Of a DNA stretch of 64,000 bases, positions 1 through 64,000 are shown in pieces (positions within the stretch are counted from its first letter, which is position 1; each line of letters begins with the position of its first letter). The stretch is from Cliona cf. orientalis (taxonomy: Eukaryota; Porifera; Demospongiae; Clionaida; Clionaidae): NCBI GenBank assembly GCA_963930775.1, contig OZ005690.1:10752411-10816410 (forward strand), in the 5' to 3' direction. The position numbers and the translations under genes are program-made. The notes under the pieces were generated by a model. It saw only the letters and a program-made list of their open reading frames with translations, searched no databases and had not been told where the DNA came from.

Positions 1-999
1 GTCAATGCACACATACAGACAAACACTCCACTTGACCTGGTAAGCTCTAACTGTGTCACAACTTCAACATCAAAATCAGAGAAAGCTTCAGCCAGTAATG
101 AATTAACTGTTGGGCTTGGGGCTGGATTGGGTCTCCTTCTGGTTGTAGTGTGTGTGGGATCAATACTTACCAATGTGCTTCTCGTAAAGCGTTTACTAAA
201 GGAGAATGATCAAGGCACTAAGGTGAAAATTTCATCAACAAATCAGTAAGTAGATAACAATTTCTATAAAACTGACTATCTCTTCTTTCCTTTTTAAGCC
301 TTCTTACCTCGTCTTTAAACCTATTGATGTTACATATTAAAAGGAATTTTCAATATCGATATTGACATTCCTTTAATCATGGTATCCCCCACATAGTCAC
401 TGTGGTGGAACCCCTATAGCTATTCCAGACACCATTGGGCAGCTTAAAGTCCATGCCCTGATTAAAGGAGCGAGATATCCTCATTTCAGTGTTAGTTTTG
501 TATACTTAGCTAGGACCATACATAGTATCCTGACTGAGGGAGATGTCCTTATTTCAGGGGTATCTTTATAGAAGGATTCCACTGTATACCATAAATCATG
601 ATATACTTTTATAGAGTGTTCGATGAAGATGATTCTGATCATGATGAGCGCTTGGTTGGTAACCCCATCTACAATGACTCCCTACCTGGGGCGAGTGAAA
701 ATACTGAGAGGGAAAGCTACAACGTTCTTCGCCATAACGTTGGAACAATGCAACAAGGAGTGATTCCTATGGGAGGATATGAAATAATCAGTAATCTTCC
801 CAACAGACCGAACATCAATGGAGGCAGTGCAATGCTACAGGGAGATGATGCATCCGCGTATGCTAAACTTGGAGCTGATGGTGTAGCAGTTGGTGAAACT
901 GAAATTACTGATGAAGGTGTGAATGCTGGAGTTGAAGAAAATAAGTTGCCGATGAAATCACCTTATGCTAACATTTTTGAGATAAGTCCTGGCGATTAA
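1..999 (+). CDS. SRCR-Ig-FN3 receptor, class A tail, 3' end only
   Basis: Only the last two exons lie in the window: 1-245 and 615-999, joined in phase 2 with a GTAAGT donor and an AG acceptor. The first encodes the end of an FN3 domain ([13 protein letters not shown]), a glycine/leucine-rich transmembrane helix beginning [10 protein letters not shown], and a basic KRLLKE stop-transfer segment. The second encodes the long class A cytoplasmic tail: acidic DEDDSDHDE, an NPIY motif, then YNVL, YEII, YAKL and YANI, ending EISPGD. Both exons are open and closely match the complete paralogue at 17069-19840. The extracellular part (SRCR, two Ig-like domains) lies upstream of the window. A surface receptor role is inferred from the architecture; ligand and partners are unknown. 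Confidence 0.85.
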
Positions 1000-1498
1000 G
1001 AATAGGTCTAGATCTGGCAGAAACACTATAATTATGTAAATTGTAATAATTATCATACGCCTCTGTACCCGTTAGTGTAGCCACTATAACAGCTCTGCAG
1101 AATTATCATGATAATAATTATTATTAGGCAGGTGAGATTATTCAATTTGTAAGTAGGTTTAATAATAATTGATATGGTCATTTCTATTATCGTAATGTGC
1201 TTATTTGCTTATTAACCATCACAGTTGTTAGATAGCTGCTATCAATATCATCAATAACTCTTACGATCACAGCTAGTCTTAATTAATAATTATTATAGAT
1301 TGAATCATTCATAGCTATTTACTAGCTACTGAGCCTTGTTTCCTAGGTATTAAGCAGGTATTATTATTCCATATCATCCTTCCCATGGGGTAATACGTTC
1401 GATATGAAGATATCCGAGTCATACTTCCTTCAGGGGGGCACTATCACAGTAGAGATCTTGCATAGCAACAGTAGCTAGCTAAGTGTAACAGTGGAGTA
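1000..1498. other. 3' flank of class A gene
   Basis: No ORF of note. The first 150 bases resemble the 3' flank after the other class A genes (near 19850, 29845 and 59860), including the stretch around CTCTGCAGAA. The rest is simple AT-rich sequence. Confidence 0.5.
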
Positions 1499-1764
1499 GG
1501 AACCAGGGGGGCCAGGGGGCCACTGGTCCCCCCAATATTTCAGAAGGGGGGGGGGGGATAATCAGGCTTGATACAAAACCCTTGTGTATGTTTCCTTCCG
1601 ATTTTCATCATGATATCAGACTTTCTTCGTAAAAGTCTGGTTTAAATTACTAAAATATTACTTCTACAAAAGAATAATTGTGGTCACAAAATTCAGTAAT
1701 CAAAGCCACACCCACAACCTGTATCGGTGGCCCCTGCAACACACGATTGCTTCCTACTCCACTG
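1499..1764. mobile_element. MITE with CAG...CTG ends
   Basis: Inverted ends CAGTGGAGTAGGAA at the left and TTCCTACTCCACTG at the right, flanked by TGTAA on both sides (1494-1498 and 1765-1769). About 266 bp with no coding capacity and a long G run near 1545. CAG-type termini with a short duplication suggest a non-autonomous hAT-like element; the family is not certain. Confidence 0.6.
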
Positions 1765-3046: not shown

Positions 3047-5340
3047 CTATATGGCAGCTGCATCTCCTCTAGATCTGGATGTGGTGGCTACATTAGTGCT
3101 AGCGGTGATCCTTCGTTGTGGAGTGCGTTGCATGGAGATATTATAAATGGGGTTGGCCACCATGTCATACTCTTCAGTGACTCTATAAGATTATAATTAA
3201 TATAAAATATAGAGAGGATAATACTGCATGGCTTATTAACAGCAATGGGAAAGAATGTATTGATTATTGTGTGAAAATATTGTACCTGTTTATGTTCTCT
3301 TGAGTTGCAGAATCACGCTTTAAACAGTTTGTACAAGGTGTTGTCTTACTGACTTTGAGTCCCACTAGTATAGATACTAATAGCAGTAGAGAACAGATGC
3401 CTAAACCAACTCCCAATCCAACGATCAAACCATTAGGATCTTGAACTGATTTGGTTATTATTGTGACAGGCTTCTTGGATTTTGTTGTTGAAGTTGCGAC
3501 ACAGTTTGAGCTTATCAGATCAAGTGAAGTGTTTGTCTGTATGTGTGCATTGACACAGCACTGGTATGCCGTGCCTGGTAGTAATCCACTGACCTGGACC
3601 CTAGTGGCACTCGTACTTATGTTGGATACTCTTACTTCATGGATTGATATCTGCCCATGATCAGATAGCAATGATGTTGTACATGATAAGTCATAGCCAC
3701 TGATGTTTTTATCACTGGGATTGGGATTAGACTGCTGCTCAGACCACTGGATCTTCATGATCACTGAAGTTGAAGTTGACTCTGCTGTCACAGAGATGCC
3801 TTGTGGTAATTGAGAGTTGTTCCCTTCCTGTAGCTGTGCGCTGCGTGTTGCTTCATGCCATTGGTCGTCAATACACACCTCCACAAGTCCTCTATGACCA
3901 TTAATAGTTTTGTTGTTGATTCTGAATTCTAAATCTCTGCAAACTAAATAAATACAGATTATTGAGGTATAGCGTATACCACAACTTTGAGCTAGCTTGC
4001 TTTGTAGTTACCTTGTACGTATAAACTCTCGTTCATGCTTCCCCTGGAGTTTTTTTACTTCACATGTGTAATTCCCGGCTGCTTCTGATGACTTGTCAAT
4101 AATCCTCAACCAGCTCTCATAAGTAGCACTAATTGTGTTAGTGATGATCTGTGAGTAATTGTAAGTTCCTCCTTCATTGGGAACAATTATTTGCGCATTA
4201 TCCTTGTACCAAGTTACATCTGTAGCTGGTCCACCAATTGACGTACATATGATAGTTTGATATACTCTATCATACTTAATCGATGTGTTAGAAATATTTC
4301 CTGTCAAAATTGTGAAGCACATGCACAAGTTTAAGATCTTATATTACATGATAATTGCTAGAATCTGATATAGTTAGTATGATTTCTACATACCTCCATC
4401 TTCAGGACTATGATAAACGCCGGCATAGAGATGGTGAGTGATATTTTCCCTGTCCATCATCTCACAGTGGTAGATCCCTCTAGGTAACTCAGCACTTTTC
4501 GAAAGGTTCAATCCCACAGTTTGGTTTCCAAGTGATTGAGTGTTAGTTGTTGATATTTTTGATCCATTTGGTAAGAACCAGCTTCCAGGAATATTGAACT
4601 CATCAATGCAACAATTTTCTCTATCTGTTGAACAAAACAGTGCCGCATTATTCTCTTGAATGCTATTTACTGTAATCAAAGTGTTATTGCTTTCTTGGTT
4701 GGGACCATACTCTAGTTTGACTCCTAAAACATATAAAGATAATAATAATAATATTAGCTATAGCTATTACCTTTACGTAAGCATTGTACACCAGCATTCT
4801 CTTCACCTTCAAACAAGTGAATTGCACAGTTGTGGTGAGGCAGACAATCCAATAAGTTGCTCTCTGATCCATTGCATCCCACATCATCCAGAGCAAAGAA
4901 CAAAAGTGCACTAGGACCATACCAATCAGGAGCTCGAGCTGACGGCTTGGTATCAATTATAGGTTCAGCATCTGATATAATAATATTATTATTGTGATGC
5001 TCATGGAACATTTTCCATAACATTTAATTTATGAAATACATACCTTGTTCTGAAAGTCCAAGTTGTCTGCACACAACAGCAGCATCATTTTCATCCCAGG
5101 CATCATCACAGACTCTCCCCCACTGCTGGTTTCTACAGACCTCCACTCTTCCCTCTCGATAATGCCTACCTCCACTCAAACGAACATCACCATCTTCACA
5201 AACTAAAGGCAAGCTTGCTAGCAATTTTGACTAAAATTTAATCACTACATACCTTGATCTGATGAGTGGATGATAATGATCCATGTAAGTAGGGATATCG
5301 ATGATCTATACACATGCAGAATACCCACAAGTATTGTAAA

Positions 5341-6053: not shown

Positions 6054-7452
6054 CAGTCTACACTAAGACCACCGGAAGTCCATATACGTACAATACATTT
6101 TAATGTCAACGCGCGGTTTGCATGGCGCCTATGGGGGTTAATGATATGCATGCCATACACGTGGGGTCAAAAATAATGCATGTCTATGTACAACGGTATC
6201 TTCTAGTGTGAGTTAGCTATCGTTCTATCTAAAGTACCATTGTAAAGAAGAAGAGCTGAGCTTCACATTGATACCAAGAACAAGACTAAGCGTGCCGAGA
6301 TGACCGATGTAGACATGAACCAGTTTTCAGCCGCGTATGGCTGATGGCATCTTTGAATTCGGGGCAAATCTGTAACACTCACACCAGCGCTAGGGGACTT
6401 GGTCCACTAGTAGGTAAGTACCAGAGCAGTTACTCCGCTGAATCCCGAGTCTTCCAGGGTCACTCAGCCACCACGAGCGCTCTTTGAAAATCTAAAATAA
6501 TTTATCACTTTAGCCTGTTCTATTTTCTTGATAGTAGCTAGCTAGACTGTCAACTAAAGAAAATACTGAACTTTAGCTACTAAATTAGCTATGTTATAGC
6601 TACCAACTCTTCGTCTTGAGTACTTTCTTCGTGACAGTTCAACTCGCTCGTCCATTTCTTGATCTTTTCTGGCTGAATGGAACTTTGAATTCGGGGCAAA
6701 TCTGTAACACTCATTCCAGAACGAGAAATGAGGCATCCTCGATGTCTATACCATGGTGGCAGTGCAGAGGAGGTTGGACACGATCACGTGCGCACAAAAA
6801 GTGGGCGTGTTGCCCCATATATAACACTGTACAAAACGTAAGTCACGATCTAAAGCCTTGACGACAGTTTTAAATGTGAAAGCAAGTTGAAATCCATGAG
6901 AAAAGAAGATCCAGCGCCATACCCCGCCCGTCCACCCCTCACACTTCTTGCAAATCGAGAAAACTCGTTCCTCAGAATGGCAACATCAAAAACAGTATTT
7001 GTCGATTGCAGTCAGCTTCTTTCGCTGTTATAACATTAGATCTACACGATTCGTCTCCGTTTCAGCTTCAGATTTGGCCATAGTTCACAAACGCAAACAT
7101 TTGAGCTACCAGCTACACTCGCAAATGGCATTCTTGAACGCGCGCGTGGCAGCATAATTGCATACCAAGGTCATGTGACTATGGCGTAAATATGCGTCAT
7201 GTCCAACCTCCTCTGGTGGCAGTGTATAGCAGTAGCGTGGAACAGAACCGCTCGAGGCGCTTCGAGAAACGAGCCTTCGAAAACGAGAAAAATTCATTCT
7301 GTCCTGGGTAGGGCGCGGTACACGGATAGATATACGGACGTATACGAGATTATTGCGTGTACCCGCGTAATACGTACGCGCGCGTGCGTAATCATACGCA
7401 GGAAAACATCATTTCCGTTTTGCCATTAAACGGTAGGTCTTAGTGTAGACTG
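6054..7452. mobile_element. TIR element inserted in the kelch gene
   Basis: Terminal inverted repeats CAGTCTACACTAAGACC (6054-6070) and its complement (7436-7452), 17 of 17, flanked by CATG on both sides (6050-6053 and 7453-7456). 1399 bp, no transposase ORF. It holds two copies of a ~30-bp block beginning CTTTGAATTCGGGG (6351 and 6682) and a nested second element. The 4-bp palindromic target duplication does not point me to one superfamily. Confidence 0.85.
6765..7215. mobile_element. Nested MITE with 9-bp target duplication
   Basis: Inverted ends CAGAGGAGGTTGGACA (6765-6780) and complement (7200-7215), 16 of 16, flanked by a perfect 9-bp repeat GTGGCAGTG (6756-6764 and 7216-7224). 451 bp, noncoding. 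A 9-bp duplication is characteristic of Mutator-like elements. It is nested in the older 6054-7452 element, so it is the younger insertion. Confidence 0.85.
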
Positions 7453-9655
7453 CATGTGACTGATGACTTCCCAGGAGTTAGTGGTTGGCTGGTACATATG
7501 AACAGCTGTGGTGGGTATGTCCTCTGAATCCATCCCACCAATTGCCAGCAGTCGACCATGAAGACTCACAGCAGTGGAGACCTCTAAAGGGAGGTCAGCA
7601 ACTCTGTTCCATGGGCTACCTTTGTTGGATCGCGTTAGTGTACTCACAAAACGCTCTCCTAGCGACTTGGTGCTGGTGAGTGAACTTAATGAACAAAAGT
7701 ACACTGAATTTATAGCTTCTTCATTTCTGTTGCATCCCCCCAGCAGATAGACCAGATCACCACAGAGTGCTATTGATGATCCTACCAATGGTAGAGGTAG
7801 ATCAGCAGCAGTGTGCCACTCTCGAATCTCAGTGTTTAGCACTTCAACTGTATTTTTGGCTTTTTCTTTATTATAAACTCCCCCTGCTACTATCAGAGTA
7901 GTTCCGGTGCACAGTGCAGACACACCATAACGTTTAGTTGGCATTGGTGGGAATTTCTCAGTCCACCTCTTACCACTGCGTTCACCAGTCAGACTGAACA
8001 GCTTGTTGGTATTCTTTTCGTTGATATCATATCCTCCAACTGTAGTCAGTAGACCATCAATGATTACCAGAGCAAATCCATTGTATGGAACAGATATAGA
8101 TACGTAATAATGTGAGAGACCAGCTGGAACTTGATATGTCGTAGGCATATACATCATTATTGAAACCATAGTTGCAATATACTGTATTGTTGTATACAAC
8201 GGCATCAGAAGATCTAAACATTTCACATGGAGGCTTCTCTCCACCTCTCCACCTCAGTTTGAAGTCAGTTCTGCTCACTGGTTCAGCCTTGGCCCCGCCA
8301 TCTTTCCCCTGTACCTGACTTCTCAGCACTCTAACTTCTTCTTCAAGTTCTGTGTTTCGTTCGCCAAAATCAGCTATCAGTCTCTCACTCTCTTCCAGCT
8401 GCTGGTTCACTCGTCCCAGCTCCCTCTCTTTTTCTTGGATTGCTTGCTGTTTCTCTCTCTCTAGCTGCTGGATTTGTCGATTGTGTTGCTGATTCTTTTC
8501 TTGAACTGTTCGGTCCTTTTCCTGTTCTATCTGTTGCTTGTCTCTCTCTAGCTGCTGATTCTGTTGCTGAATTTGTTGAATCTGCTGAGTAAGCTCTTCT
8601 CTACATTGTCTCAGTTGCTGTTCTTTTTCTGCTATAGTTGCATCTTTTTTATCTATGACATGTCGAAGTTGCTCATATTCTCCCTCCTTGCCTCTGCTGC
8701 CTTTCACTCTCTCACTGGCATTCTTGTATTTAGCTGTTTCTTTCAGAGCTGCTAGTCTTTCACAGAGCTGCTGAGCTGAGGGGCGTTCACCATCGGCATC
8801 CGATTTGAGACAGTCGAGGGCAATTGATAGGAGAGGATGGTTTGAATCAACTCGACTAATGTGGTTTTGTCGTCGTTCTATTTCTAGTACACTCATCTTG
8901 ATTGGCCTAGGGTAGTGAGGATCATTAATAGTCATTAGTCGATCTCCTGGTTTGGGGAATTCTCGTGTCAGTGTCTGGACTGCGATGACACCAAATGAGA
9001 AGCAGTCGATCTTCTCTGTGTACACTGGTTTGTCTTGAACAGCTTCTGGAGGCATGTAGACATCAGTACCGGGACACATGGTATTGGTGAAGCGAGTTGG
9101 TTGAGGATTTAGATCGCCCAGCCTTGCCATTCCAAAGTCGGTCAATTTTGCTCTAATGTTGCCGATAAGCAACACATTGTTGCTGGAGAGATCTCTGTGG
9201 ATGATGCCATTGGAGTGGAGAAATGATAGCGCTCGACTTATATCGTGGCAGATGTTGACTTGGATGTGGTAGGAGATCGGCTGTGGGGAGCTTTCCAGTA
9301 AGTGGGTCAGGCTATCATCCATCAGCTCCATTAGTAGAGCTGGGAGGCGTGTTTCGGGGTCTTGGTGGGTGCCCAGGTATTGGACAATGTTAGGGTGCCG
9401 TACGGTGCTCAAGAACTCACACTCTAGTTGAAACCTGCTGATTGGTAGCCTGTGCTCTCTGTGAGGGGCTATTTGATGCAGTGCAGTTGGATCGAATAGA
9501 GTTGGGTGGATGATTTTAGCAGCACAGAGGAGGTCGTCACACTCTGCCTTGCAGACTGATCCATATGATCCAATACCGAGGGTTTGGTCTTTCAGAAGAA
9601 CGATAGTTTTGAAGCCAATCTTCCTGTCTCCCTGCTGCTGCTGTTCTCCAGCCAT

Positions 9656-9955
9656 ATTAACTTAATCTAGCTCAGTAGCTACAATACTCCCAGTATAGAT
9701 ACGCAGTAGCCAACGCCCATGTCCATGTCACATGATCTGTATCCCTTTACGCACGCGCACGGGATAAATGTTGTATTGCAAGGATCTAGGGGAGAACTAT
9801 ATCTCTGACAGATGCTTCATGTATCATATATCAACATTGAACTCTTGTCATCCCTTAATGAATCTACCTCTTTCATGCTTTAATACTTGGATTCCTTTGA
9901 AGCGGTTGCAGAGGCCACACCCCTTGGCAAAGCAAGCAGCTCCACTGAACTATTA
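9656..9955. other. Upstream region of the kinase-kelch gene
   Basis: Presumed promoter side of the minus-strand kinase gene. No conserved element recognised; a GC-rich CACGCGCACG stretch lies near 9752. Confidence 0.3.
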
Positions 9956-15342: not shown

Positions 15343-17068
15343 GATTCCAAACTTGACAACTCTGAGATATCAAAATATTTATGGCTATATCTCTGAGACT
15401 CAATTTCTATAAAACAAAGTGCAATTGACCTCCCAGTGAAGGCACTTTCATGGAGGGCCGTTAATGATAGTTTTGAGAAGTTTCAGGTAACAATTTGTAG
15501 GAAAAGCCTTATTTTTGTTTCTGAGCAGCTGCCGCGACTGGTTCTAGCATGGTCTACACGTTTATTGCTTTGATGATTTATTACAGTAGCTTATTAAGTG
15601 CACACTATAATTTATAGGCGTTAATTATTATTATTAAAGCGACAATTAATGTCAAATCACTGAGAAAAATGTTTCGTGACGTAATTTCTACTTGACTTTC
15701 CTATTAGTCTACACTGTAGGAGGTTGCATGCTTCACTTTCAGTGATAACAGTGACATAGATGTAACACTAACAGTAATATTATTGAACTCAATCAGCTCA
15801 TGTGACCAGTTAAAGGTAATTCCTATGAGTTTATAATCCCCTTGTGGTTTGGAATCGATGCCCCTTCAACACTTGTGGGTTGTTTATTTTTGTACATAAT
15901 TTGTACTATACAATACAATGTCATGATAATTATATTATTATTGTGGATGTGTATTATACCATGCTAAAACATGTACGTTACACATTAAGTGTCCTGATTA
16001 TGGAATGCTATAGATGATAATATATACTAATTAATGGCTAGTATAGTCTAAGATATCCTCATTGATTGTAGCCTTATGTGCATGTGTTACCAGTTGTTGC
16101 CCTTTTGGGTAAAGGTAGTTTCGAATTCATATGAAACTTAATTTTCAATCTTCTTACACTTTTAGTTGTGGCTTTCTACGATTATAATATTGTTGTTCTT
16201 TTGACCATTTGGGTGACTCTCTAATCTTATGATATTACCCCAAACCTATCACCTTTCATGAATGTTTAAAACCGTGACATGCAGTGACATATTTTCAATC
16301 TTCTTATATTACTTTTAGCCATGGTTTTTTACAACCATATAATATTGCTGTTCTTTTGATCATTTGGGTGCCTCTCTAATCTAAGACTTATGATATTACC
16401 CCAAACCTATCACCTTTCATGAATGTTCAAAACCGTGACATGCAGTGACATAGTGCTATGGCTATATAAAATAGGCCCACAGTGAATATCATTAATTTTT
16501 GTGCAGGCACTATAGTTAGCTAGATACAATGCCATACTTTCGTAATGTCGTATACTGTTCATTCATATTACATGCATTATGTACTGAATGTTGCTATTAT
16601 ACCCATATAATACACTGACATAATAATAGTGCATGCATGCATATACTATGCATTTTGTATTGCGTACATACACATAATATTATATTAATGATGTATATAT
16701 ACGTAGCATACCAATGGGAATGAGTAAACACAGTGCAGGGTAAAGTGAAAGGACTACTGAATCAGTCTAAGCCAGTAATTTGGCACATAGTATATATTAT
16801 GGTGTAATCATAACTATAAAGTGAATGTGCCTCTTTGTTTTCTATACAGTGAAGCTGTGATTATTCGTGAGCTTTCTGCTACATAAAATGTATCTTTAGA
16901 GAAACAGAACTGGGAGTTAAAATAGCACATATCTAGCCAATCATAACAATACAGCAGTGATTGCCTTACATAATTATTCTTTTATGCTGTGTATAGATAA
17001 TAATACTATTTGAGATCTTAGACTCAGCTCACTGTCACTGATCAGAAGCATTCCTGTTTGAAATAGCA
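15343..17068. other. Divergent intergenic region, one copy of a segmental duplication
   Basis: Head-to-head spacer between the class B locus at 15342 and the class A gene at 17069. From about 15430 it matches 54120-57140 over most of its length, apart from insertions in that copy. No ORF recognised. An internal direct repeat (ATATTTTCAATCTTCTTA...CATGCAGTGACAT) occurs at about 16140-16290 and again at about 16290-16450. Confidence 0.6.
16719..16765 (+). promoter_or_regulatory. Conserved upstream element of class A gene
   Basis: ATGAGTAAACACAGTGCAGG followed by AAAGTGAAAGGACTACTGAA. The same pair of blocks occurs about 240-450 bp upstream of the ATG of other plus-strand receptor genes and, mirrored, upstream of minus-strand ones. 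Regulatory role inferred from conservation and position. Confidence 0.55.
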
Positions 17069-21196: not shown

Positions 21197-21474
21197 TCAG
21201 TGACTTGCTATTGGAGTATCACTGACAGCTACTTGCTGTCTTGGTTTATTTCCACCGAGACCAGTCACTTCTTCATAAGTTACATTAGCCGTGTCTCCTC
21301 TGGTTGTGGTTGTAACAGTAGCCTTGGTGCCAGTGGGACATGTTATTGTCCGTTATTGTGGAGTGTGTTGCATGGAGATGTTGTAAATGGGGTTGGCTAC
21401 CAAGTCATACTCTTCAGTGATGCTATAATATAAGAAAGAGAGAGAATAATAATATTATCATAATTTATAATTAA

Positions 21475-31456: not shown

Positions 31457-31473
31457 CTCCTCAGGATCGTGGT

Positions 31474-52000: not shown

Positions 52001-52109
52001 ACTAGCAAAGTATCAGTTCGGACTAAAATTTAATTTCTGTAGGCATACCTTGATTTGATGGCTGGATAATGATCAATATCCATACAAGAGCTACCGACAT
52101 TTGGCTCAT
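49024..52109 (-). CDS. SRCR-Ig-Ig-FN3-TM receptor, class B tail, complete
   Basis: Minus-strand exons 52109-52049, 51978-51820, 51763-51575, 51514-51188, 50554-50270, 50216-49529 and 49210-49024 give 1896 nt (631 aa). Leader [20 protein letters not shown] keeps all canonical cysteines, with an extra MYNC in the second half. Ig1 (CSTD...SWFLA...YHCEM), Ig2 and FN3 ([10 protein letters not shown]) are open. A long Ser/Thr/Glu stalk ([16 protein letters not shown]) precedes the helix [15 protein letters not shown]. Tail: NPIY and IIYEEV, ending TTSSCQ. The 633-nt intron between Ig2 and Ig1 contains a palindrome (50712-50765) and a GGAC tetranucleotide tract. The short alternative tail exon found in other class B genes is decayed here, having lost its NPxY codons (about 49255-49325). 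Confidence 0.88.
50712..50765. repeat. Perfect 25-bp palindrome in intron
   Basis: Arms 50712-50736 and 50741-50765, beginning ATTGAACTAGATACATACTA, 4-nt spacer. Confidence 0.9.
51050..51112. repeat. GGAC microsatellite
   Basis: Repeated GGAC units with a few ACAA interruptions inside a receptor intron. Confidence 0.9.
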
Positions 52110-54119
52110 TGTGATATCAAGGATGATTCCTAGCTGACTCTTTAGATCCCTTCAAGATGACTTGATATCAGTCAGAACACAAAGTAAAGCAAGTCACTGT
52201 TTCTACCCAATAGTTTATTACCTCAATTTCATTTCTACATAACAAAGTCACTGGAAACTCACTGATTGCTGTGTAAGTTTTTCAGTAAGCAGAGTGAATG
52301 CATGCAGAGGAGGATAAATTACTCTTAGTGAATTTAGTTAATTTAATACTTACATGTATGCATTAACTAATGTTCCAGAAATGTAGCTAATTAAGTTGTT
52401 TATACAGTTAGGAATCTGAAATATTTAGACAATGATATTTCCTCATACTAATGGTTAATGATTTAGAAAGGAGGCATGAAACCGAGACAATTATCGTCCT
52501 TAATTACTACAATGAATAATTTCAATTTTGAAAAATGTACGCTTTTCTGGTAAAGGTCGTCAATTGCTCATTACACATTATGTAAATGCTAGTTTCTTAC
52601 GTTAAATTGTGTAAAAATTAACAGTGACATATTATATTTTGTACTCCATGGCATGTTCAATGGGAATTGATCAGTGAAACTCTGGAGAGGATGTGATGTT
52701 TGGAGTTAGCGATGAGTAGGTAGAATAATATATGAATAGCAAAGTCAACATTAATTATAACCGATGATCATGTTAGTAGTACATTTTATGTGATGAAACA
52801 CAATAATTATTATTATCAACCAATACTAAGACTCACTTATATACCGTATACACACAATGTCATTAGTTTTGTATCATTAAAGGCAACAATACCGTATAAT
52901 CTGGTTAATAAGCGCATGCGCTTATAGCGGTAAACGGAACGACAGTATGCGCTTAATAAAGGATATGCGCTTGTATGGCACATAGCCACGCCCACAAACG
53001 TTTGGGCACGTGATGGATGCGAGGCCCGCACCGCTCGCGCTAGTGCAGTGCTAGCTGGCTCGATCGATCGAGTGCTTTAGCGTTTACAGTTGCCGCTCAA
53101 GACGACCAGTGCTGGCGATTTGTCTGAAACTCGATCTTCTTCCATGATATGGCCATCATTTCTCCAAAGATATCTGGACTCCACATACTTTCCAGCCGGT
53201 CAAGGTCAGGTTCATAGAACGCCACGCCTATTAATAGCGATTTCCAACCTCTAAAATTAGCGGTGTTTTAAAGATAGTAGAATCTCGACTTGAATCGTGA
53301 GGTACTAGCTCCTCCAAGACCTTGCTTTAAAAGCGTGATGATAGGCGATCATTATGGCGTTTGTTTCGCGAAAATCGGTCAAGTAGTTTAGGAGTTACGC
53401 GCGTGCAAAATTTCATTCCGCGAAAATGCCATACAAAACATATGGGAATAAAATTCTTCCAAAAAATACATTGCGTTTGCGGCACCGCCCATATGACCAC
53501 CTAAATTTGATTTCCGCGAGAGCGTAAGCTACGCTGGGATCATTTGACCGATCCTGGGCAAATCGGAGGTGCTGATTTCGAATTTGGTGACTATTCTTGG
53601 CCAAAATGCACGTATGTACCACTATAAGGGCTAAAACAAGAATAGAGATAGCAAAATAAGCTATAACCAACGCGTATTTACTCGTATCACAGGCGGGCGT
53701 TATCTTGGGAAAGCAAAGCCGATCCGCTCACAGCAGTATTATTTCGATTAATGAGCTTCACAACTCCGGAAACATAATAGAAGAGTGTGGTGATGGAATC
53801 ATAGGGCAAATTTTTGATAGCCATAGTTCGTGGGCATTTATCTCAGCCGACCATTACCAGTTCAGCCGCAAGCAATCTGAAGGTCCCTTAGTAAGGATAA
53901 GAGCTGGTGTGTTTAAATCACTATTTGAGCATGTTCAAAGAAGATTTAGCTAGAGCCTAGGCTATAATTTACATGACATAATTCATCCATCTTTGATATA
54001 GCTACAGTGCTTCAAGGCAAGAGAGCAAATTTTTTGAACTTCTATTTTTTGAGGTTAAATGAGCTTCACTATGCTTAATAACATCTACAGATATCATAAA
54101 AATCACTTTTATCGTCTTT
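52110..54119. other. Intergenic with element remnant
   Basis: 52661-52735 matches the 3' flank after the gene ending at 48523 (TGATCAGTGAAACT, GATGTTTGGAGTTAG), a relic gene end. 52890-53240 is an inverted relative of the element at 54749-55197. 53240-54119 is not recognised; it holds only an ~80-codon ORF (53705-53953, +) with no domain I know. Confidence 0.5.
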
Positions 54120-54748
54120 TTGCACGCTAGAATCAGTTGCGGCAGCTGCTCGGGAACAAAAACAAGGCTTTTCCCACAAATTGTTACCTGAAACTTCTCA
54201 AAACTATCATTAACGGCCCTCGAGCTCCATGAAAGCGTGGTCTACACGTTTATTGCTTTGATGATTTATTACAGTAGTTTATTAAGTGCACACTATAATT
54301 TATAGGCGTTAATTAAGCGACAATTAATGTCAAATCATTGAGAAAAATGTTTTGTAATGTAATTTCTACTTGACTTTCCTATTAGTCTACACTGTAGGAG
54401 GTTGCATGCTTCACTTTCAGTGATAACAGTGACATAGATGTAACACTAACAGTAATATTATTGAACTCAATCAGCTCACATGACCGGTTAAAGGTAATTC
54501 CTATGAGTCTATAATCCCCTAGTGGTTTGGAATCGATGCCCCTTCAACACTTGTGGGTTGTTTATTATTATACATAATTTGTACTATATACAATACAATG
54601 TCATAATGTTATTGTGGATGTGTATTATACCATGCTAAAACATGTACGTTACACATTAAGTGTCCTGATTATGGCATGCTATAGATGATATATTAATTAA
54701 TGGCTATAGTATATAGAGTAGTCTAAGATATCCTCATTAATTGTAGCC

Positions 54749-55197
54749 ATACCGTAAACTCTGGTTATTAAGCGCACCTCGCTATTAAGCGCACATTGTT
54801 TATTAAGCGCATGCCCTCTTCTTGTCATAAGCTATTGTTTATTAAGCGCATGCGCTTAATAGGCGTGGCGTTCTATGAATCTGACCTTGACCGGCTGGAA
54901 AGTATTGGGAGTCAGGTATCTTTGGAGAAATGATGGCCACGAATAACGTTATCATGCAAGAAGATCGACAAATCGCAAGCACTCGTCATCTTGAGCGGCA
55001 ACTGTAAATGCTAAAGTGCTCGATCGATCGAGCGCTAGCGCTAGCGGGCCTCGCATCCATCACGTGCCCAAACGTTTGTGGGCGTACGCGTGGTTATGTG
55101 CCATATAAGCGCATATCTTTTATTAAGCGCATACTGCAGCTGGCATTCCGTTTACCGCTATAAGCGCATGCGCTTATTAACCAGAGTCTACGGTATT
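54749..55197. mobile_element. MITE rich in AAGCGCATGCGCTT motifs
   Basis: Ends ATACCGTAAACTCTGGTTAT and the imperfect complement AACCAGAGTCTACGGTAT. Many internal GCGCATGCGC / TTAAGCGCA motifs in both orientations. Absent from the paralogous site near 16075. A truncated inverted relative lies at 52890-53240. Confidence 0.75.
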
Positions 55198-55585
55198 ATA
55201 TATATGTGTGTTACCAGTTGTTGCCCTTTTGGGTAAAGGTAGTTTCGAATTCATATGAAACTTAATTTTCAATCTTTTATAGCCGTGGCTTTTTACAATC
55301 ATAATTATTGTTGTTCTTTTGACCATTTGGGTGACTCTCTAATCTTATGATATTATTACTCCAAACCTATCACCTTTCATGAATGTTCAAAACCATGACA
55401 TGCAGTGACATAGTGCTATAGCTATATAAAATAGGCCCACAGTGAATATCATTAATTTTTGTGCACGCACTATAGTTATAGCTAGATACATTGCCATACT
55501 AGTACTTTCGTAATGTCGTATACTGTTCGTTCATATTACATGCATACTGAATGTTGCTATTATACCCATAATACCATAATTATAA

Positions 55586-55924
55586 TGCACCAGTCAATGG
55601 TATGCCCCACCACCCCTACATGCATGGGGCAAATATGGGGACAATGTAGGAGATATGCAAAATCAAGCCTGCCCTAGGCTAGGGGTGGGGCATTGTCACG
55701 CCCAAAAATCAAGTGCTAATCAATAAACTTGAAGCTAATACAGTGGGCGAAGGTCAAGAAGTAAGCCAGCTGGCGACAAAGAATAGAATATGTGGGGGCT
55801 TTGCATAACTTGAAGTGCCCCAGGGGTGGGGACTTACTGAAATTCGAAAGGAACAATCCCCACCTTGCCCCACATCGGCCCCATGTATACGTAGGGGTAG
55901 TGGGGCATACCATTGACAGGTGCA
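55586..55924. mobile_element. MITE, TGCACCTGTCAA family, copy 2
   Basis: Ends TGCACCAGTCAATGGTATGC and complement ...CCATTGACAGGTGCA, target TAA (55583-55585 and 55925-55927). Empty site in the paralogous region near 16615. Same family as 10288-10646. Confidence 0.8.
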
Positions 55925-56027
55925 TAATAATAATAGTGCATGCATGCATGCATATACTATGCATTTGTATTGCGTACATACACATAATATATTAATGATG
56001 TATATATATATTATGTAGCATACCATG

Positions 56028-56462
56028 GCAATGAGTAAACACAGTGCAAAGTAAACACAGGAAAAAATCTTCACAACACAACTGTTGCATTACTTAATTC
56101 ACAATCATTTTGGGAACATTGTAAACTCTTCACAACGGTTGTAATTCCAAAATGCATCAAATTACAACAAAAGCACAACATTAGGGTAGTTAATGAATCA
56201 TTATTAATGGTTATATACCTAATTTCACAACCGTTGCACAACAGGTTCACAACCGTTGTGTTTAATAACACAATACTTTTGCAACGACCCAACATTTAGG
56301 CCAAAACACAACCGTTGCAAGCGGCGCGGTACAATCTTTGTCGTACCTTGATGTTGTGAAAGTACTGTGATTAGACCTAATTCACAACAAATTACAAGGA
56401 ATCTGCAACAATTGTGTTGTGAAGATTTTTTCCTGTGAAAGTGAAAGGACTACTGAATCAGT
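56028..56462 (+). promoter_or_regulatory. Upstream element split by a MITE
   Basis: The two conserved blocks (ATGAGTAAACACAGTGC and AAAGTGAAAGGACTACTGAA), about 10 bp apart at 16719-16765, are here separated by the 382-bp element at 56056-56437. Confidence 0.65.
56056..56437. mobile_element. MITE, CACAGGAAAAAATC family, copy 1
   Basis: Ends CACAGGAAAAAATCTTCACA and complement, internal ACAACGGTTGT/ACAACCGTTG words, target AAA on both sides. The paralogous region at 16740 is empty. Confidence 0.85.
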
Positions 56463-56672
56463 CTAAGCCAATAATTTGGTACACAGTATATATTATGGTG
56501 TAATCATAACTATAAAGTGAATGTGCCTCTTTGTTTTCCATACAGTGAAGCTGTGATTATTCGTGAGCTTTCTACTACATAAAATATATATTTAGAGAAA
56601 CGGAACTGGGAGTTAAAATAGCAAATATCTAGCCAATCATAACAATACAGTAGTGATTGCCTTACATAATTA

Positions 56673-57058
56673 CACAGGAAAAAATCTCCACAACACAACT
56701 GTTGCATTACTTAATTCACAATCATTTTGGGAACATTGTAAACTCTTCACAACGGTTGTAATTCCAAAATGCATCAAATTACAACAAAAGCACAACATTA
56801 GGGTAGTTAATGAATCATTATTAATGGTTATTAGTAGTTTATACCTTATTTCACAACCGTTGCACAACAGGTTCACAACCGTTGTGTTTAATAACACAAT
56901 GCTTTTGCAACGACCCAACATTTAGGCCAAAACACAACCGTTGCAAGCGGTACAATCTTTGTTGTACCATGATGTTGTGAAAGTATTGTGATTAGACCGA
57001 ATTCACAACAAATTACAAGGAATCTGCAACAGTTGTGTTGTGAAGATTTTTTCCTGTG
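56673..57058. mobile_element. MITE, CACAGGAAAAAATC family, copy 2
   Basis: Nearly identical to copy 1, 236 bp further on, target TTA (56670-56672, 57059-57061). Empty site in the paralogue near 16974. Confidence 0.85.
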
Positions 57059-57142
57059 TTATTCTTTTATGCTGTGTAGATATTTGAGATCTTATACTCA
57101 GCTCACTGTCACTGATTAGAAGCATTCCAGTTTGAAATAGCA

Positions 57143-59856
57143 ATGAACCTACAGTCAATAGCTCTATTTAATTCGTGGATATTGATCCTTATCATCCAGT
57201 CATCAGATCAAGGTATGCCTGCAGTGTTTAAATTTAGCTTAATGCTGAACGTGTATGCTCTATATATAGCTTGTGCATGAAGATGGTGATATTCGTTTAA
57301 GTGGAGGTAGGCATTATCGAGAGGGAAGAGTGGAGGTCTGTAGAAACCAGCAGTGGGGGAGAGTCTGTGATGATGCCTGGGATGAAAATGATGCTGCTGT
57401 TGCATGCAGGCAACTTGGACTTTCGGAAGAAGGTATCAAAATTCAGTGTTAATATTGCATGTTCTACAATATCTGATTCAGGTGCTGAAGCAATAATTAA
57501 TATTATGGAGTCAGCTCCAGATCTAGATCCTAGTACACTTTCGTTCTTTGCTCTGGATGATGTGGGATGCAATGGATCAGAGAGAAACTTATTAGATTGT
57601 CTGCCTAAGCACAACTGTATTACAACAGCAGGTGAAGAGATATTGCTGGCGTACAGTGCTTACGTAAAGGTATGGAAGATCAAATTAACAGCAGCTGATA
57701 AAAATTACGTGTTTTCACTGGCCTGTTTTAGGAGTTAAACTAGAGTATGGACCCATCCAAGAAAGCAATAACACTTTGATCACAGTGAATGCCACACAAG
57801 AGGGTAATGCTGCACTATTTTGCTCAACTGATAGAGAAAAATGTTGTGTTAAAGAGTTCAATATACCTGGAAGCTGGTTCTTACCTAATGGATCAAAGAT
57901 ATCATCATCATCAACTAACACATCACTTTATAATATTGCTTTGGGAGACCAAACTGTGGGATTGAATATTAGTCCTGACTTACCTAGGGGGCTTTACCAC
58001 TGTGAGATGATGGACAGAGATAACATGACTCACCACCTCTATGCTGGTATTTACCTTGAAGATGAAGGTACTATGCAGTACATGCTAAAAATAATAATAG
58101 CTAATGTATTATTAGCCAAAGGGCTGTTAATTGATAAGAACTTAATATTCTAGGAAAAGTGACTAACGTATCTGTTAAGTATGACAGAACAAGTCAAACC
58201 ATCACCTGTACATCAACTGGTGGACCAGCCACAGATGTTACTTGGTCAAAAGACAACATAAATATCAGATTTACTATGGGAGGTATTTATGAACACTCAC
58301 AGATCATCATAAACACAACTAGTGCTACTTATGAGAACAGGTTGAGAATTGTTGATAAGTCATCAGAAGCAGCCGGGACCTACACATGTCAAGTCATAAA
58401 CTCCAGGGGAAGTGTGAATGGGAATTTATATATATAAGGTAACTATTATGCAAAAGACAGCTGTAATCAATAATTATTATTATGAAAATTCAGTATGCAG
58501 AGATCTAGAACTCAGGATTAACAACAAAAGTGATGTCCATAGAAGTATTGTGGAGGTGTGCATCAATGACCAATGGCATGAAGCAAAACGTAGCATGCTT
58601 GTAGCAAACAGCTCTCAACCACTACAAGACATCTCTGTCATGATAGCAGATTCAACTTCAGTGATGATAAAATGGTCTGGGAAGCAGTCTAGTCCCAATG
58701 ATAAAAATATCAGTGGATATGATTTATCATGCACAGCATCATCACTATCTGATCACGGGCAGATCCATGAAGTGAGAGTACCCAACATTAGCACAAGTAC
58801 CACTAGGGTCCAGGTCAGTGGATTACTACCAGGCACAGCATACCAGTGCTGTGTCAATGCACACATACAGACAAACACTCCACTTGACCTGATAAGCTCC
58901 AATTGTGTCACAATGTCAACAACAAAATCCGAGAAAGTTTGTAGCTGTGGTGACTCTTTTGAATTAGCTGCTGGACTTGGGGCTGGACTTGGTCTCCTAC
59001 TGATTGTAGTATGTGTGGGATCAATACTTATCAACATGTTTCTCGTAAAGCGTTTACTAAAGGAGAAAGATCAAGGCACTAACTTAAAGGTGTTAACAAA
59101 TCAGTAAGTAGATAACAAATATATAGAACTGACTAGCTATCTCTTCCTTCCTCTCTAAGCATTAAGTCTTTCATTATCTTTAAACCTATTGATGTTACAT
59201 TAATATCGACATTGATATTCTTTTGATCACGGTATCCCCTAATAGCTGCATATAGTGACACAGTGATCTAACCACTCTATTCCAGACACCCCTGTGGCAG
59301 CTTAAAGTGCAATGAATAAAGGAGCTAGGTGTCCTCATTAATTTTCAGTGATAGTTTTTATATACTTAGCTATAGGAGCATGCATAGTATCCTGATTGAG
59401 GGAGATGCCCTTATTTCAGGGGTAGGGATTCCACTGTACACCATAAATCATGATTATTATATTTTTATAGAGTGCTAGCTTGATGAAGATGATTCTGATC
59501 ACGATGAGCGCTTGGTTGGCAACCCCATCTACGGTGACTCCTTACCTGGGGCGAATGAAAACACTGAAACCACTGAGAGAGAAAGCTACGACGTTCTTCG
59601 CCATAACATTGGAGCAATGCAACAGGGAGTGATTCCTATGGGAGCGTATGAAACAATCAGTAATCTTCCCAATAGAGCCAGCGGCGAAAGAGATAGTCCA
59701 GTGCTACAGGGAGATGATGCATCCGCGTATGCTAAACTTGAAGCTGAGGGTGTAGCAGTTGGTGAAATTGAAATTGCTGATGAAGGTGTGAATCCTGGAG
59801 TTGAAGAAAATGAGTTGTCAATGAGATCACCGTATGCTAACATTTTGTCCTTGTGA
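57143..59856 (+). pseudogene. SRCR-Ig-FN3 receptor, class A, multiply frameshifted
   Basis: Closest relative is the intact gene at 17069 (same leader MNLQSIALFNSWILIL). Exon equivalents: 57143-57212, 57270-57432, 57482-57669, 57732-58067, 58154-58440, 58494-59103, 59471-59856. Lesions: four extra bases (CATG) near the start of SRCR half 1; two extra bases near the end of SRCR half 2; CAA to TAA at the last codon of Ig2; four extra bases (CTAG) at the start of the tail. The rest of each exon is open, with tail motifs NPIY, YDVL, YETI, YAKL and YANI. An alternative acceptor just after the CATG insertion could rescue SRCR half 1, but not the other lesions. Decay postdates the duplication. Confidence 0.8.
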
Positions 59857-61326
59857 TTAAGAATAGGTCCAGATACAGGAACACTATGTGAATTAATTGT
59901 AATAATTATTATGCCTCTATACCCTTTAGTGTAGCCACCGTAACAATTTAATATCTCTGCAGAACTATCATGATAATAACATTATTGGTAAGATTACTCA
60001 GTTTGTAAGCAAATTTAAGTGAATTTTAATAACCTCATTTAAGTTTATCATTGATAGGATCATTGCCATTATCATGAATTATGTTTATTAACCATCACAG
60101 TTATTAGATAGCCATTGTCAATATCATTAGTAGCTAGCTTTACCGTCAATCAGAGCTAGTCATATAGATTCATAGTCTAAGACTAGTTACTTCTCCTGGA
60201 GATGATAAACATTGCAGTATACTGTTTCTGTTTGAATATCGATCATCTCAAGCAACTCATGCAGTTACGTTAATACCCTATACCGTTGTGATAATACAAT
60301 AATATAGGTACGATACCTCTATGTTAGTAAATTGAGATTTGAAAGCTAATAATTATACTCAGTCTCTATATATATACATTAGTTAATAAGTTAGAAAAAC
60401 AGGCTATGTGTTTTTGCAAAGTATATGATCAGTGCTGATGTTATTTTGGAAATTGAAAGTGAAAAACAGTTATTATAATAATAATGGGTTCAGTGACCAG
60501 ACAGAGAGAGATTGTGACTGTGTAGGCATAATTACTTTGAGTAGGTATACTGTAGACGGTACCATCTGGCCATAGGAGCCGCGTCTCACTGGCATGACTA
60601 TAAAATTAATACCGAAAATTTGCGGGGAATGTTTGAAAAAACAAGCAACACTGTAGTTACTTGGAAAGCTGCATGGGACTTTTTTGAATGACATTGTGCA
60701 TGGCTACAGTGAATTGAAAAATTCATGGAAACTGCATTTACCCAAAAGAATCGAAAAGTGGCATAAACATTACTATAGGTATAGCTACCCTAATTCCATA
60801 GCCACTATATCTCACAGATCAAATCATGCTAGCAATCCCCTTCCTCTCCCACGAGTTCTGAAAGACAGGAGCTGATGATGATTCTTCTGTGTATGCTAAA
60901 CTGGGGGCTGTGGGCACTGATTAGTGAAACACTGGAGATCGAGAATGTGATGTTTGGAGTTAGCAATGAGTCAGTAGAATGTATTATAAAATTAATACTG
61001 GTAGCTAAAACATCACGTTAGCAGTACATGTAATGTGATAAAACATTACAATACCCAATACTGGGACACACCCACATTAATTTGGTATCTTTAATAGCAA
61101 TAATTATTGTGCAAAATGATACAGGTATCCATGGCGTATACTTGAATCTATATATAGAACTTCATTATTAATTTTGTATGAATCACATGTAGCTAGCTAC
61201 TTAGCGAGGTCACTACACTAATTATGAAACCAGTAATTATTCCACTTAATATTAATCATCTACTCTTTCTTCGGGTTAGTAGTAGCTAACAAAGTTATTG
61301 CAGTAACTGTATTGTTTCCAGCTAGC
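59857..61326. other. 3' flank of class A locus with relic tail exon
   Basis: Same ~600-bp flank as after 19840 and 29839. Relic at 60865-60925 encodes TGADDDSSVYAKLGAVGTD then stop. No complete gene. Confidence 0.6.
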
Positions 61327-63758
61327 TCAGTGACTTGCTATTGGAGTATCACTGACAGCTACTTGATGTCTTGGTTTATTTCCATCGAGACCAGTCACTT
61401 CATAGGATACAGCAGCTGTGTCTCCTCTGGCTGTGGTTGTAACAGTAGGGTTGGTGCCAGTGGGACATGTTATTGTCCGTTGTTGAGGAGTGTGTTGCAT
61501 GGAAATGTTGTAGATGGGATTGGCTACCAAGTCATACTCTTCAGTGACGCTGTGTAAAAAAGAGAGGGAATAATAATAATATTATTACTATATTATTACT
61601 TAATCTAGTCCAATAGCTGACCCTTGTTGTGGAGTGGAGATATTGTAAACGGGGTTAGCTACCACGTCATACTCTTCAGTGACTCTGCATGTAAGAAAGA
61701 GAGAAATAACGAATAACTATTGGAATGCTTACTGAGAGGAAGGAAGCGGCACAAGTATAGTAGCCAGCTCTGTAGAGATTATTATCTACTTACTGATTTG
61801 TTGATGAAAATTTCACTTTAGTGCCTCGATCTTTCTCCTAATTAAGTAAACACTTTACAAGAAATATGTTGATTAGTATTGATCCCACGCACACTACAAT
61901 GAGTAGTCCATACCCAAGTCCGGCAGCTAATTCAAAAGAGTCACCACAGCTACTAACTTTATCAGATTTTGATGTTGAAACTGTGACACAATTGGAGCTT
62001 ATCAGATCAAGTGGAGTGTTTGTCTGTATGTGTGCATTGACACAGCACTGGTATGACGTGCCTGGTAGTAATCCACTGACCTGGACCCTAGTGGTACTTG
62101 TACTAATGTTGGGTACTCTCACTTCATGGATCTGCCCGTGATCAGATAGAGATGATGTTGTGCATGTTAAGTCATATCTACTGATGTTTTCATCATTTTC
62201 ATCATTGCTGCCCAGACCATTTTATCATCACTGAATGTGAATCTGCTATCATGACAGAGATGTCTTGTAGTGGTTGAGAATTGTTTACTAAAAGCATGCT
62301 ACGTTTTACTTCATGCCATTGGTCATCAATGCATATCTCCAGAGTACTCCCGTGGACATCACTTTTGTTCTTGATCCTGAGCTCCATATCTCTGCATACT
62401 ATATTATTATTGCTTATACAGCTATCATTAATTTTGCATAATAGTTAGTTACCTTGTATGTATAAATTCCCATTTACGCCTCCCCTGGGGTTTGTGACTT
62501 CACATGTGTAATTCCCGGCTACTTCTGATGACTTGTCAACAATTCTCAACCTGTTCTCATAAGTAGCACTAGTTGTGTTTATGATGATCTGTGAGTGTTC
62601 ATAAAGATCTCCCATAGTCAATCTGATATTTACGTTGTCCTTTGACCAAGTAACATCTGTGGCTGGTCCACCAGTTGATGTACAGGTGATGGTTTGACTT
62701 GTTCTGTCATACTGAACAGTTACATTAGTCACATGTCCTATTGAATTCACATCAAATATATAAAAAGCTCAGAGTCTTTGACTATATAATCAATTAGGAT
62801 ATACCTTCATCTTCAGGGTAAATATACCAGCATAGAGATGGTGAGTGATGTTTTCCCTATCCATCATCTCACAGTGGTAAATTCCACTAGGTAATTCAGC
62901 ACTATCCGTAATGTTCAATCCCACAGTTTGGCTCCCCAACACAATGTGGAGTGGTTGAGTGTTAGTTGATATTTTTGACCCATTTGGCAAGAACCAGCTT
63001 CCAGGAATATTGAACTCATCAATGCAACAATTTTCTCTATCGGTTGAACAAAACAGTGCTGCATTATTCCCTTGAATGCCATTCACTGTAATTAAAGTGT
63101 TATTGCTTTCTTGGTTGGGTCCATACTCTACTCTGACTCCTATAAAATTTAAAAACAGCCCAGTGAGAAAATGTAATGAATTTTATCAGCCGCTAAAATT
63201 TTGATCTTCATCCATACCTTTACGTAAGCACTGTACGCCAGCATTCTCTTCACCTGCTCTCATAATATCACAGTTGTGGTGAGGCAGACAATCTAATAAG
63301 TTGCTCTCTGATCCATTGCATCCCACATCATCCAGTGCAAAAAATGAAAGTGTACTAGGACCATACCACTCTGGAGTTGACTGCTTTGTATTAATTACTT
63401 CAGCACCTGAATCAGATATTGTAGAACATGCATAAAAATTATATTAACGTTAACACTGAATTGTGATACCTTCTTCTGAAAGTCCAAGTTGTCTGCACAC
63501 AACAGTGGAGTCATTAATATCCCAGGCATCACAGCAGACTCTCCCCCACTGCTGGTTTCTACAGACCTCCACTCTTCCCTCTCGATAATGCCTACCTCCA
63601 CTCAAGCGGACATCACCATCTTCACAAGCTGAAACAAGAAAGCTATACACACTAGCAAAATACTGGTGCAGAATAAAATTTAATTCTGCAGGTATACCTT
63701 GATTTGATGGCTGGATAATGACCACTATCCATACAAGAACTACTGACAGTTGGTTCAT
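61327..63758 (-). pseudogene. SRCR-Ig-FN3 receptor, class B, decayed; stop after membrane helix
   Basis: Minus-strand exons: leader 63698-63758 (MNQLSVVLVWIVVII), SRCR 63470-63628 and 63218-63406, Ig1 62805-63139, Ig2 62453-62737, FN3-transmembrane 61794-62398, alternative tail 7a 61600-61684, tail 7b 61327-61549. Ig1 has two extra bases in its last strand (AGI then frame shift). The FN3 exon is out of frame around GQQ, near 62195-62215, where several bases are lost and a GATGAA-type repeat gained. An in-frame TAG follows the helix where paralogues read KRLLKE. In tail 7b one Glu of YEEV is missing. SRCR and Ig2 are intact. Pseudogene most likely. Confidence 0.78.
61600..61684 (-). other. Alternative terminal exon 7a, class B
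   Basis: Reads [27 protein letters not shown] and TAA after the acceptor ATGCAG; same position and phase as at 34435-34519. Confidence 0.65.
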
Positions 63759-64000
63759 TGCAATATCAAGGATGATTCATAGACAGTCAAATTTGATATC
63801 AGTCAGAGCATGAAGTCTTGAAGGCAATGATATTAACACTCCAAGTTCAACCTGCTTGTAGCTATCGTGTTAATGAGTGGACATAATTCAGCTTCTCTAG
63901 TAATTAAAAGCTAATCATATCTATAGCTTTACTGTATCGAAAAGTATAATATAATAGTTATGATTATGCTGTTATACAATATGCCAAATTATTATTGGCT
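63759..64000. other. Upstream region of class B locus
   Basis: Matches the upstream sequence of the class B loci at 25940 and 37125 (CTGCTTGTAGCTATCGTGTT and following). Cut by the window end before the conserved element. Confidence 0.55.

Follow-up and report, generated by a model that had tools for sequence, protein, structure and literature searches.

What kind of receptor system is encoded by a cluster of SRCR, immunoglobulin (Ig) and FN3 domain genes in the sponge Cliona cf. orientalis, whose members lie head to head and end in two different tyrosine-bearing tails? The cluster is located on contig OZ005690.1 (assembly GCA_963930775.1). The window, the whole stretch that was analysed, comprises 64,000 nucleotides (positions 10,752,411 to 10,816,410 of the forward strand), and coordinates are those of the window unless another contig is named. 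Sponges reject foreign tissue and, to our knowledge, no settled cell-surface receptor system is known for this rejection. Paired receptors with balancing tails, KIR and SIRP among them, are known mainly from vertebrates. On balance, we lean towards the reading that the sponge genes encode paired receptors, which were duplicated as head-to-head pairs, would have two phosphotyrosine outputs and evolved apart from the vertebrate ones.

The gene models were built from homology and splice sites on one assembled haplotype. The reference copy is c4:
17069-19840, plus strand: c4, open tail-A receptor of seven exons, 683 amino acids
17069-17138, 17199-17357, 17415-17612 and 17695-18009, plus strand: exons 1-4 of c4
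18101-18388, 18441-19068 and 19447-19840, plus strand: exons 5-7 of c4

Every intron of c4 is bounded by GT and AG, and splicing yields exactly 683 amino acids, as the initial annotation had predicted from the letters of this DNA. Phase-1 domain borders, also claimed there, were found at five exon borders; the border between exons 6 and 7 is in phase 2. By inspection, exon 1 encodes a signal peptide. Exons 2 and 3 together encode an SRCR domain (residues 34-139; E 2.6e-21, 76.2 bits against a Pfam cut-off of 26.1), exon 4 a weak Ig domain, exon 5 a clear Ig domain (Pfam ig, E 2.4e-8, 34.6 bits against a cut-off of 21.8), exon 6 a short SRCR-like stub, an FN3 domain, a stalk and the membrane span, and exon 7 the tail. 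The fn3 profile exceeded its Pfam cut-off in c4 (E 8.8e-8) and matched all eight exon-6 translations scanned. By a domain above its Pfam cut-off in each case, c4 falls into both the SRCR and the Ig superfamily. The SRCR-Ig-Ig-FN3 order of the initial annotation is thus upheld for the SRCR, the second Ig and the FN3, and the first Ig is weak. For this domain, c4 gave no Pfam match up to E 1; Ig_4 matched exon 4 in three of nine copies (best E 0.0018), and a C..W..YxC pattern, seen by inspection, is Ig-like. An NCAM1 chain also matched (E 2.7e-5), most strongly along exon 4, although no single stretch passes alone, and profile comparison of exon 4 with exon 5 was not significant (hhalign probability 1%). 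We therefore assign exon 4 only weakly to the Ig domains. When the stubs were ranked against the exon-2 profile, all ten real ones were in the top 13 of 1010, with one shuffled sequence above five of the ten; the stub is likely, on this weak signal, to be half an SRCR domain. The copies are predicted to encode type I membrane proteins with, in order, SRCR, weak Ig, Ig, half-SRCR stub, FN3, span and tail.

Copies were searched by BLAST with the exons in the window and in 70 kb of contig on each side (204 kb in total). Homology between copies is far above chance: the best non-self tblastn match, in exon 6, has E 9e-110. The cluster consists of 18 copies over 103 kb, from -27.3 to +75.8 kb in window coordinates, and no further copy was found in the remainder of the flanking 70 kb on either side. 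From left to right, with strands, the order is cL1-, cL2+, cL3-, c1+, c2-, c3-, c4+, c5-, c6+, c7-, c8+, c9+, c10-, c11+, c12-, cR1+, cR2- and cR3+; cL1 to cL3 and cR1 to cR3 are outside the window. Where the initial annotation counted thirteen loci, the window contains twelve homologous copies of the seven-exon gene, plus two short tail-exon fragments. Besides c4, the window contains the following copies and fragments, to which a third fragment on the right is added:
1-999, plus strand: c1, 3′ portion of a tail-A copy, from late exon 6 through exon 7 (615-999); exons 1-5 left of the window, stop in exon 4
3047-5202, minus strand: c2, tail-B copy; exons 2-7 found, no start codon found, late frameshift in exon 5; tail exon 3182-3047
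13064-15211, minus strand: c3, tail-B pseudogene; exon 1 not found, exon 2 with one base deleted, exon 4 without its 5′ part; tail exon ~13290-13064
21197-25939, minus strand: c5, tail-B pseudogene; insert of ~2.1 kb within exon 6; tail exons 7a ~21557-21458 and 7b ~21421-21200
27054-29839, plus strand: c6, open tail-A receptor, 668 amino acids; donor of exon 1 is GC
34171-36593, minus strand: c7, open tail-B receptor, 616 amino acids; tail exon 7b 34390-34171, alternative 7a ~34519-34435
38171-41516, plus strand: c8, broken copy; damage in exon 6, exons 3 and 4 separated by ~870 bases; tail-B-like exon 41300-41516
45844-48523, plus strand: c9, open receptor, 676 amino acids, outside any head-to-head pair; divergent tail A 48217-48523
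49024-52109, minus strand: c10, open tail-B receptor, 631 amino acids; tail exon 49210-49024
57143-59860, plus strand: c11, tail-A pseudogene; exons 2 and 7 interrupted by 4-base insertions, exon 5 with a stop at its end
61327-63758, minus strand: c12, tail-B pseudogene; exons 4 and 6 frameshifted; tail exons 7b 61549-61327 and 7a ~61683-61624
33861-33947, plus strand: c9-type tail exon fragment downstream of c6
60865-60921, plus strand: c9-type tail exon fragment downstream of c11
68729-68791, plus strand, right of the window: c9-type tail exon fragment downstream of cR1

Ten of the 18 copies are open (cL1, cL3, c4, c6, c7, c9, c10, cR1, cR2 and cR3) and encode 613-683 amino acids; among them, c6 and cR2 each need a GC donor once. 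Eight copies are broken: c1 by a single stop in exon 4, and the other seven by frameshifts, stops, lost exons or inserts. The initial annotation had described a fast-turnover cluster with five open copies, one partial copy and the rest broken by different lesions, and this picture is borne out: five of the twelve window copies (c4, c6, c7, c9 and c10) are open over all seven exons, and the partial copy is c1, which continues beyond the left edge. It had missed the half-SRCR stub, the second tail, the head-to-head pairing and the six copies outside the window.

The second tail is the first of the features on which our reading depends. Exon 7 of c4 (tail A) has no match in the six minus-strand copies of the window, which have a distinct last exon downstream of their exon 6 (tail B). 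A query with tail B of c2 matched c2, c3, c5, c7, c10 and c12 in the window and, on the plus strand, c8, which is the sole plus-strand copy with a tail-B-like exon. In the whole genome (216.8 Mb), tail B occurs in full at ten places (nine on the minus strand, and c8) and tail A at eight, all on the plus strand; every one is in the cluster. Outside the cluster, neither tail had a genome match at E up to 10 with every first-look candidate scored, although very diverged forms could escape this search. The table of strand against tail (9/0 versus 1/8) gives a Fisher p of 0.0004, for copies that arose by duplication and are not independent.

Motifs were counted in eleven tails and compared with shuffled tails. 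The five standard A tails (c4, c6, cR1, cR3 and c1) all possess NPIY and four YxxL/I motifs, where shuffles give about one (p 0.0025-0.0085 for YxxL/I/V), so the tyrosine-motif tails of the initial annotation hold; the divergent A tail of c9 has three YxxL/I (p 0.045). Tail B is 61-76 amino acids long and contains NPIY and mostly YDLV and YEEV; that of c7 ends in TYEEVTGL. The five open B tails have one or two YxxL/I/V each, which is not above shuffles (p 0.09-0.38); c10 is without the first tyrosine, and YEEV is replaced by YKEV in cL3 and by YEEA in cR2. NPxY is present in all eleven tails tested (p 0.004-0.024). Motifs resembling the immunoreceptor tyrosine-based inhibitory motif (ITIM; [SIVLT]xYxx[LIV]) number two per tail in six A tails (p 0.021-0.036 against shuffles) and one per tail in four of five open B tails, in the latter not above shuffles (p 0.12-0.37). 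These comparisons support the idea that tails A and B are different docking sets. Because LVxNPIY near the membrane is common to both, the two tails may descend from one exon.

Four short extra copies of tail B, termed alternative exon 7a, were found beside c5, c7, c12 and cR2, each of which thus has two terminal exons, a short 7a and a long 7b. In c7, the acceptors of 7a and 7b both fit one phase, and splicing might therefore select the tail. The c9-type fragments downstream of c6, c11 and cR1 look as if A genes, too, once had a second terminal exon.

The second feature is the arrangement of the genes. Sixteen of the 18 copies form eight head-to-head pairs (cL1/cL2, cL3/c1, c3/c4, c5/c6, c7/c8, c10/c11, c12/cR1 and cR2/cR3), with c2 and c9 single. 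In seven pairs a B gene on the minus strand faces an A gene on the plus strand; in c7/c8, B faces B-like. The gap from start to start is 0.9-1.6 kb in six pairs, 5.0 kb in c10/c11 and less than 1.9 kb in c3/c4, where exon 1 of c3 was not found. The intergenic regions in the window are as follows:
15212-17068: region between c3 (exon 2) and c4, a head-to-head pair
25940-27053: c5/c6 region, homologous to those of c7/c8, c12/cR1 and cR2/cR3
36594-38170: c7/c8 region
52110-57142: c10/c11 region, enlarged, with a piecewise match to the c3/c4 region

Among the four homologous pairs, intergenic identity is 91-96% with gaps left out and ~80-90% by BLAST. The intergenic DNA of the two left pairs is ~80% identical in two pieces, and that of c3/c4 and c10/c11 is 84-96% identical in pieces. 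Because eight pairs have homologous intergenic DNA, the divergent pair is the duplicating unit. The motif CCTGGTCCAATGA[GA]TAAACA is present in six of the eight intergenic stretches and AATGA[GA]TAAACA in all eight; we take the elements to be a CCAAT box and a forkhead-like site, and the stretch may contain a shared two-way promoter. In the A genes c4, c6, cR1 and cR3, by comparison, identity is 50-86% for introns 2-4, 81-100% for intron 5 and 78-95% for intron 6. Identities of 96% between some intergenic regions are also what would be expected if alternative haplotypes had been assembled end to end and inverted. This explanation is scarcely credible, given that exon identity between partners ranges from 57% to 99%, that lesions differ between copies and that all copies are on one 14.8-Mb contig.

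The third feature is the mixing of ectodomains. Separate trees cover exons 2 and 3 together (18 copies), exon 4 (16), exon 5 (18) and the two parts of exon 6, front (16) and back (17). Exon 4 trees and identities omit c3 and cL2 (16 of 18 copies, six of eight pairs); the front of exon 6 omits c5 and c8 and its back omits c5, while pair identities for exon 6 were calculated with c5 and c8 despite their damage. On these five trees, the tail label changes 7, 6, 7, 6 and 5 times, against means of 6.3, 5.5, 6.1, 5.6 and 5.9 for shuffled labels, and the share of 300 shuffles at or below the observed number is 0.90, 0.84, 0.94, 0.81 and 0.32. A and B genes have traded ectodomain exons, and the ectodomain is independent of the tail. 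Similar ectodomains with different tails, as in paired receptors, are therefore present. Partial linkage of the membrane part to the tail is seen on the tree of the back of exon 6, where five B copies (cL1, cL3, c2, c3 and c8) group together. Among the ten open copies, synonymous divergence (dS) is 0.11 in exon 2 and 0.59 in exon 4; thus, parts of the gene have different histories. In cR2/cR3, a tract of ~410 bp from exon 2 through intron 2 to exon 3 is 95-100% identical in sliding windows, with flanks at 56-75%, and this conversion-like tract may reflect gene conversion between these two partners.

We propose that the unit is a minus-strand tail-B gene and a plus-strand tail-A gene, ~0.9-1.9 kb apart (5 kb in one pair), whose two-way promoter would cause both receptors to be made in one cell. 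Exon exchange would let both tails sit behind similar binding faces. The SRCR, the weak Ig and length-variable loops would bind ligand, and binding or clustering would lead to phosphorylation of the tail tyrosines by Src-type kinases. Tail A, with NPxY and four YxxL/I of which two are ITIM-like, would recruit a broader set of SH2 proteins, plausibly including an SHP-like phosphatase. Tail B, with NPxY and one or two motifs of the YDLV/YEEV type, would recruit a smaller SH2/PTB set that includes YEEV binders. One contact would then give two outputs, to be weighed by the cell.

Several observations weigh against paired receptors. The spacing of the immunoreceptor tyrosine-based activation motif (ITAM) was found in none of the eleven tails, and by inspection the membrane span contains no charged residues. 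Because ITIM-like motifs occur in both tail types, opposite signs are not indicated, and a split into activating and inhibitory members is not supported. Linkage of tail and strand follows from the duplication of one ancestral pair and alone is no proof of function; moreover, close head-to-head genes may be commonplace in compact genomes. The intergenic DNA is not evidently constrained, since some A genes have introns 5 and 6 that are equally alike. Seven of the eight pairs have one broken member, and in this haplotype cR2/cR3 alone is open on both sides. (Under random placement, exactly one open member in seven of eight pairs has a probability of 0.09, a hint that we did not take as evidence.) Most forks of the trees are poorly supported, which weakens the result on the scatter of labels. 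Resemblance between partners does not generally exceed that between non-partners, with uncorrected permutation p values of 0.10, 0.02, 0.99, 0.80 and 0.88 for exons 2-6. The idea that partners are always alike failed, with cR2/cR3 and, weakly, exon 3 as exceptions. Lastly, the pooled ratio of nonsynonymous to synonymous divergence (dN/dS), calculated from the ten open copies, is 0.35, 0.51, 0.27, 0.52 and 0.44 for exons 2-6.

The last two observations would fit a tandem array of ordinary adhesion or pattern receptors, with tails that serve sorting and adhesion signalling and a head-to-head layout that is an accident of duplication. In one sponge and one sea urchin, SRCR genes show heavy tandem duplication, and pairing is not mentioned in the excerpted text of that report (PMC10855680). 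We regard this explanation as rather doubtful: there are two distinct tails, each open in five of the ten open copies, and yet the ectodomain exons are mixed between them.

Within exon 6, dN/dS is 0.29 for the stub, 0.35 for FN3, 1.00 for the stalk and 0.49 for the span. In the tails it is 0.54 for A (five tails, with c1 included and c9 left out) and 0.42 for B (five tails). Among windows of 20 codons, only two have a ratio above 1, one of 1.08 where exon 3 begins and one of 1.86 within the gap-rich stalk; we did not take them as proof of diversifying selection, and a pervasive form of it was not seen. Neither these ratios nor the tails, in which no ITAM occurs, support the immune or allorecognition role suggested in the initial annotation. 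The open copies are under constraint by purifying selection. This bears on whether the cluster is decaying and of little present function, as its eight broken copies and the transposon-like insert in c5 might suggest. With ten open copies, five A and five B, and dN/dS well below 1 even in the tails, decay is very unlikely.

Known systems resemble the cluster in part. In the fester family and fester co-receptor (FF/FcoR) pairs of Botryllus, adjacent membrane receptors vary as pairs and FcoR has YxxI/L/V tails (PMC12065747). Adjacent receptors duplicated pairwise are what we found here. FF/FcoR differs in combining Ig with Sushi domains, and no signalling domain is known in fester or uncle fester, whereas both sponge partners are SRCR-Ig-Ig-FN3 proteins with tyrosine tails. 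No Sushi domain was found in a Pfam scan of c4 up to E 5, so the Ig-plus-Sushi combination is absent from it. The sponge cluster thus resembles FF/FcoR in layout and not in domains. Variation of haplotypes by gene pairs was, to the knowledge of the Botryllus authors, previously undescribed (PMC12065747). As proposed for FF/FcoR, A and B of one pair could also be obligate heterodimers that form one receptor instead of two in competition. The sponge genes are likewise paired and duplicated as pairs, and in Botryllus the members of a pair are co-expressed and gene content varies pairwise (PMC12065747). In the sponge, however, both partners have a tyrosine tail and the same ectodomain plan, and seven of eight pairs keep only one open member; we consider obligate heterodimers improbable.

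Vertebrate paired receptors such as CEACAM also have similar ectodomains and different tyrosine tails, and gene conversion can uphold the similarity of partners (PMC2832619). The sponge genes differ from them in the absence of an ITAM, the SRCR and FN3 domains of the ectodomain and the head-to-head unit. Although the cluster would work like paired receptors, we did not file it under that name, because opposed members, with an ITAM or charged span against an ITIM, were not found. For the Alr family of Hydractinia, we know of no SRCR domain and no head-to-head two-tail pairing. Alr is similar in being a large linked family of Ig membrane proteins, with 41 members, for allorecognition (PMC11999971). 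Mammalian FCRLS combines Ig and SRCR domains in one immune protein; it has no transmembrane segment, its type B SRCR comes last and it is a single gene beside CD5L (PMC7940838). Sponge SRCR genes form tandem clusters, with 296 genes in one sponge (PMC10855680), and are 'sometimes' combined with FN3 or Ig domains (PMC6208332). The excerpted texts of these two sponge reports mention no two-tail paired arrangement (PMC10855680, PMC6208332). In the open-access literature, we found no description of an SRCR-Ig-Ig-FN3 architecture or of such a paired two-tail arrangement.

Elsewhere in the genome, the search for relatives gave at least 109 matches, with 65 of 1373 candidates scored. Among those scored, the best whole relative outside the cluster is C10:4974501-4976308 on the minus strand, which has the SRCR-Ig-Ig-FN3 order with matches at 59% (SRCR), 48% and 54% (Ig) and 40% (FN3 region); this single diverged gene perhaps resembles the founder of the family. 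Other relatives among the scored candidates are Ig-Ig-FN3 and Ig-stub matches on C13 and three Ig matches on C15. As for signalling partners, SH2 domains gave 103 genome matches (126 of 126 candidates scored) and tyrosine phosphatases at least 186 (150 of 373 candidates scored). At C8:9936138-9938107 on the plus strand, SH2, SH2 and tyrosine phosphatase (PTP) follow each other on one strand, as in SHP phosphatases; one SH2 covers 45 of 77 positions, and the phosphatase is read through two stops, perhaps introns. Similar SH2/tyrosine phosphatase neighbourhoods are present on C4 near 7445030-7451017 and 7505653-7513694 (minus strand). The C8 and C4 loci are candidate SHP-like phosphatases by position, not assembled genes.

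Three other elements are located among the copies:
7426-9661, minus strand: open frames with a protein kinase domain and then Kelch repeats, which an intron or a change of frame probably separates within a single gene
30638-33262, plus strand: long open frames between c6 and the tail fragment at 33861-33947
~21977-24107: the insert in exon 6 of c5; its two ends encode a near-identical peptide in opposite orientation, as transposons with inverted ends do

Two of the frames at 30638-33262 were scanned and gave no Pfam match at 1e-3; by their motifs, the frames look like reverse transcriptase of a Penelope-like element.

The wider proposal is that an early-branching animal possesses an independent paired-receptor system, in which head-to-head pairs, turned on jointly by a two-way promoter, would sense the same contacts with two phosphotyrosine tails, trade ectodomains between them and discriminate self from non-self or symbionts from pathogens. 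We put this forward tentatively, as a possibility short of probable. If it is true, the coupling of one binding face to two outputs is a principle that evolved separately on an SRCR-Ig-Ig-FN3 scaffold. The locus bears on the question of how sponges reject tissue, for which it offers defined genes, tails and intergenic regions.

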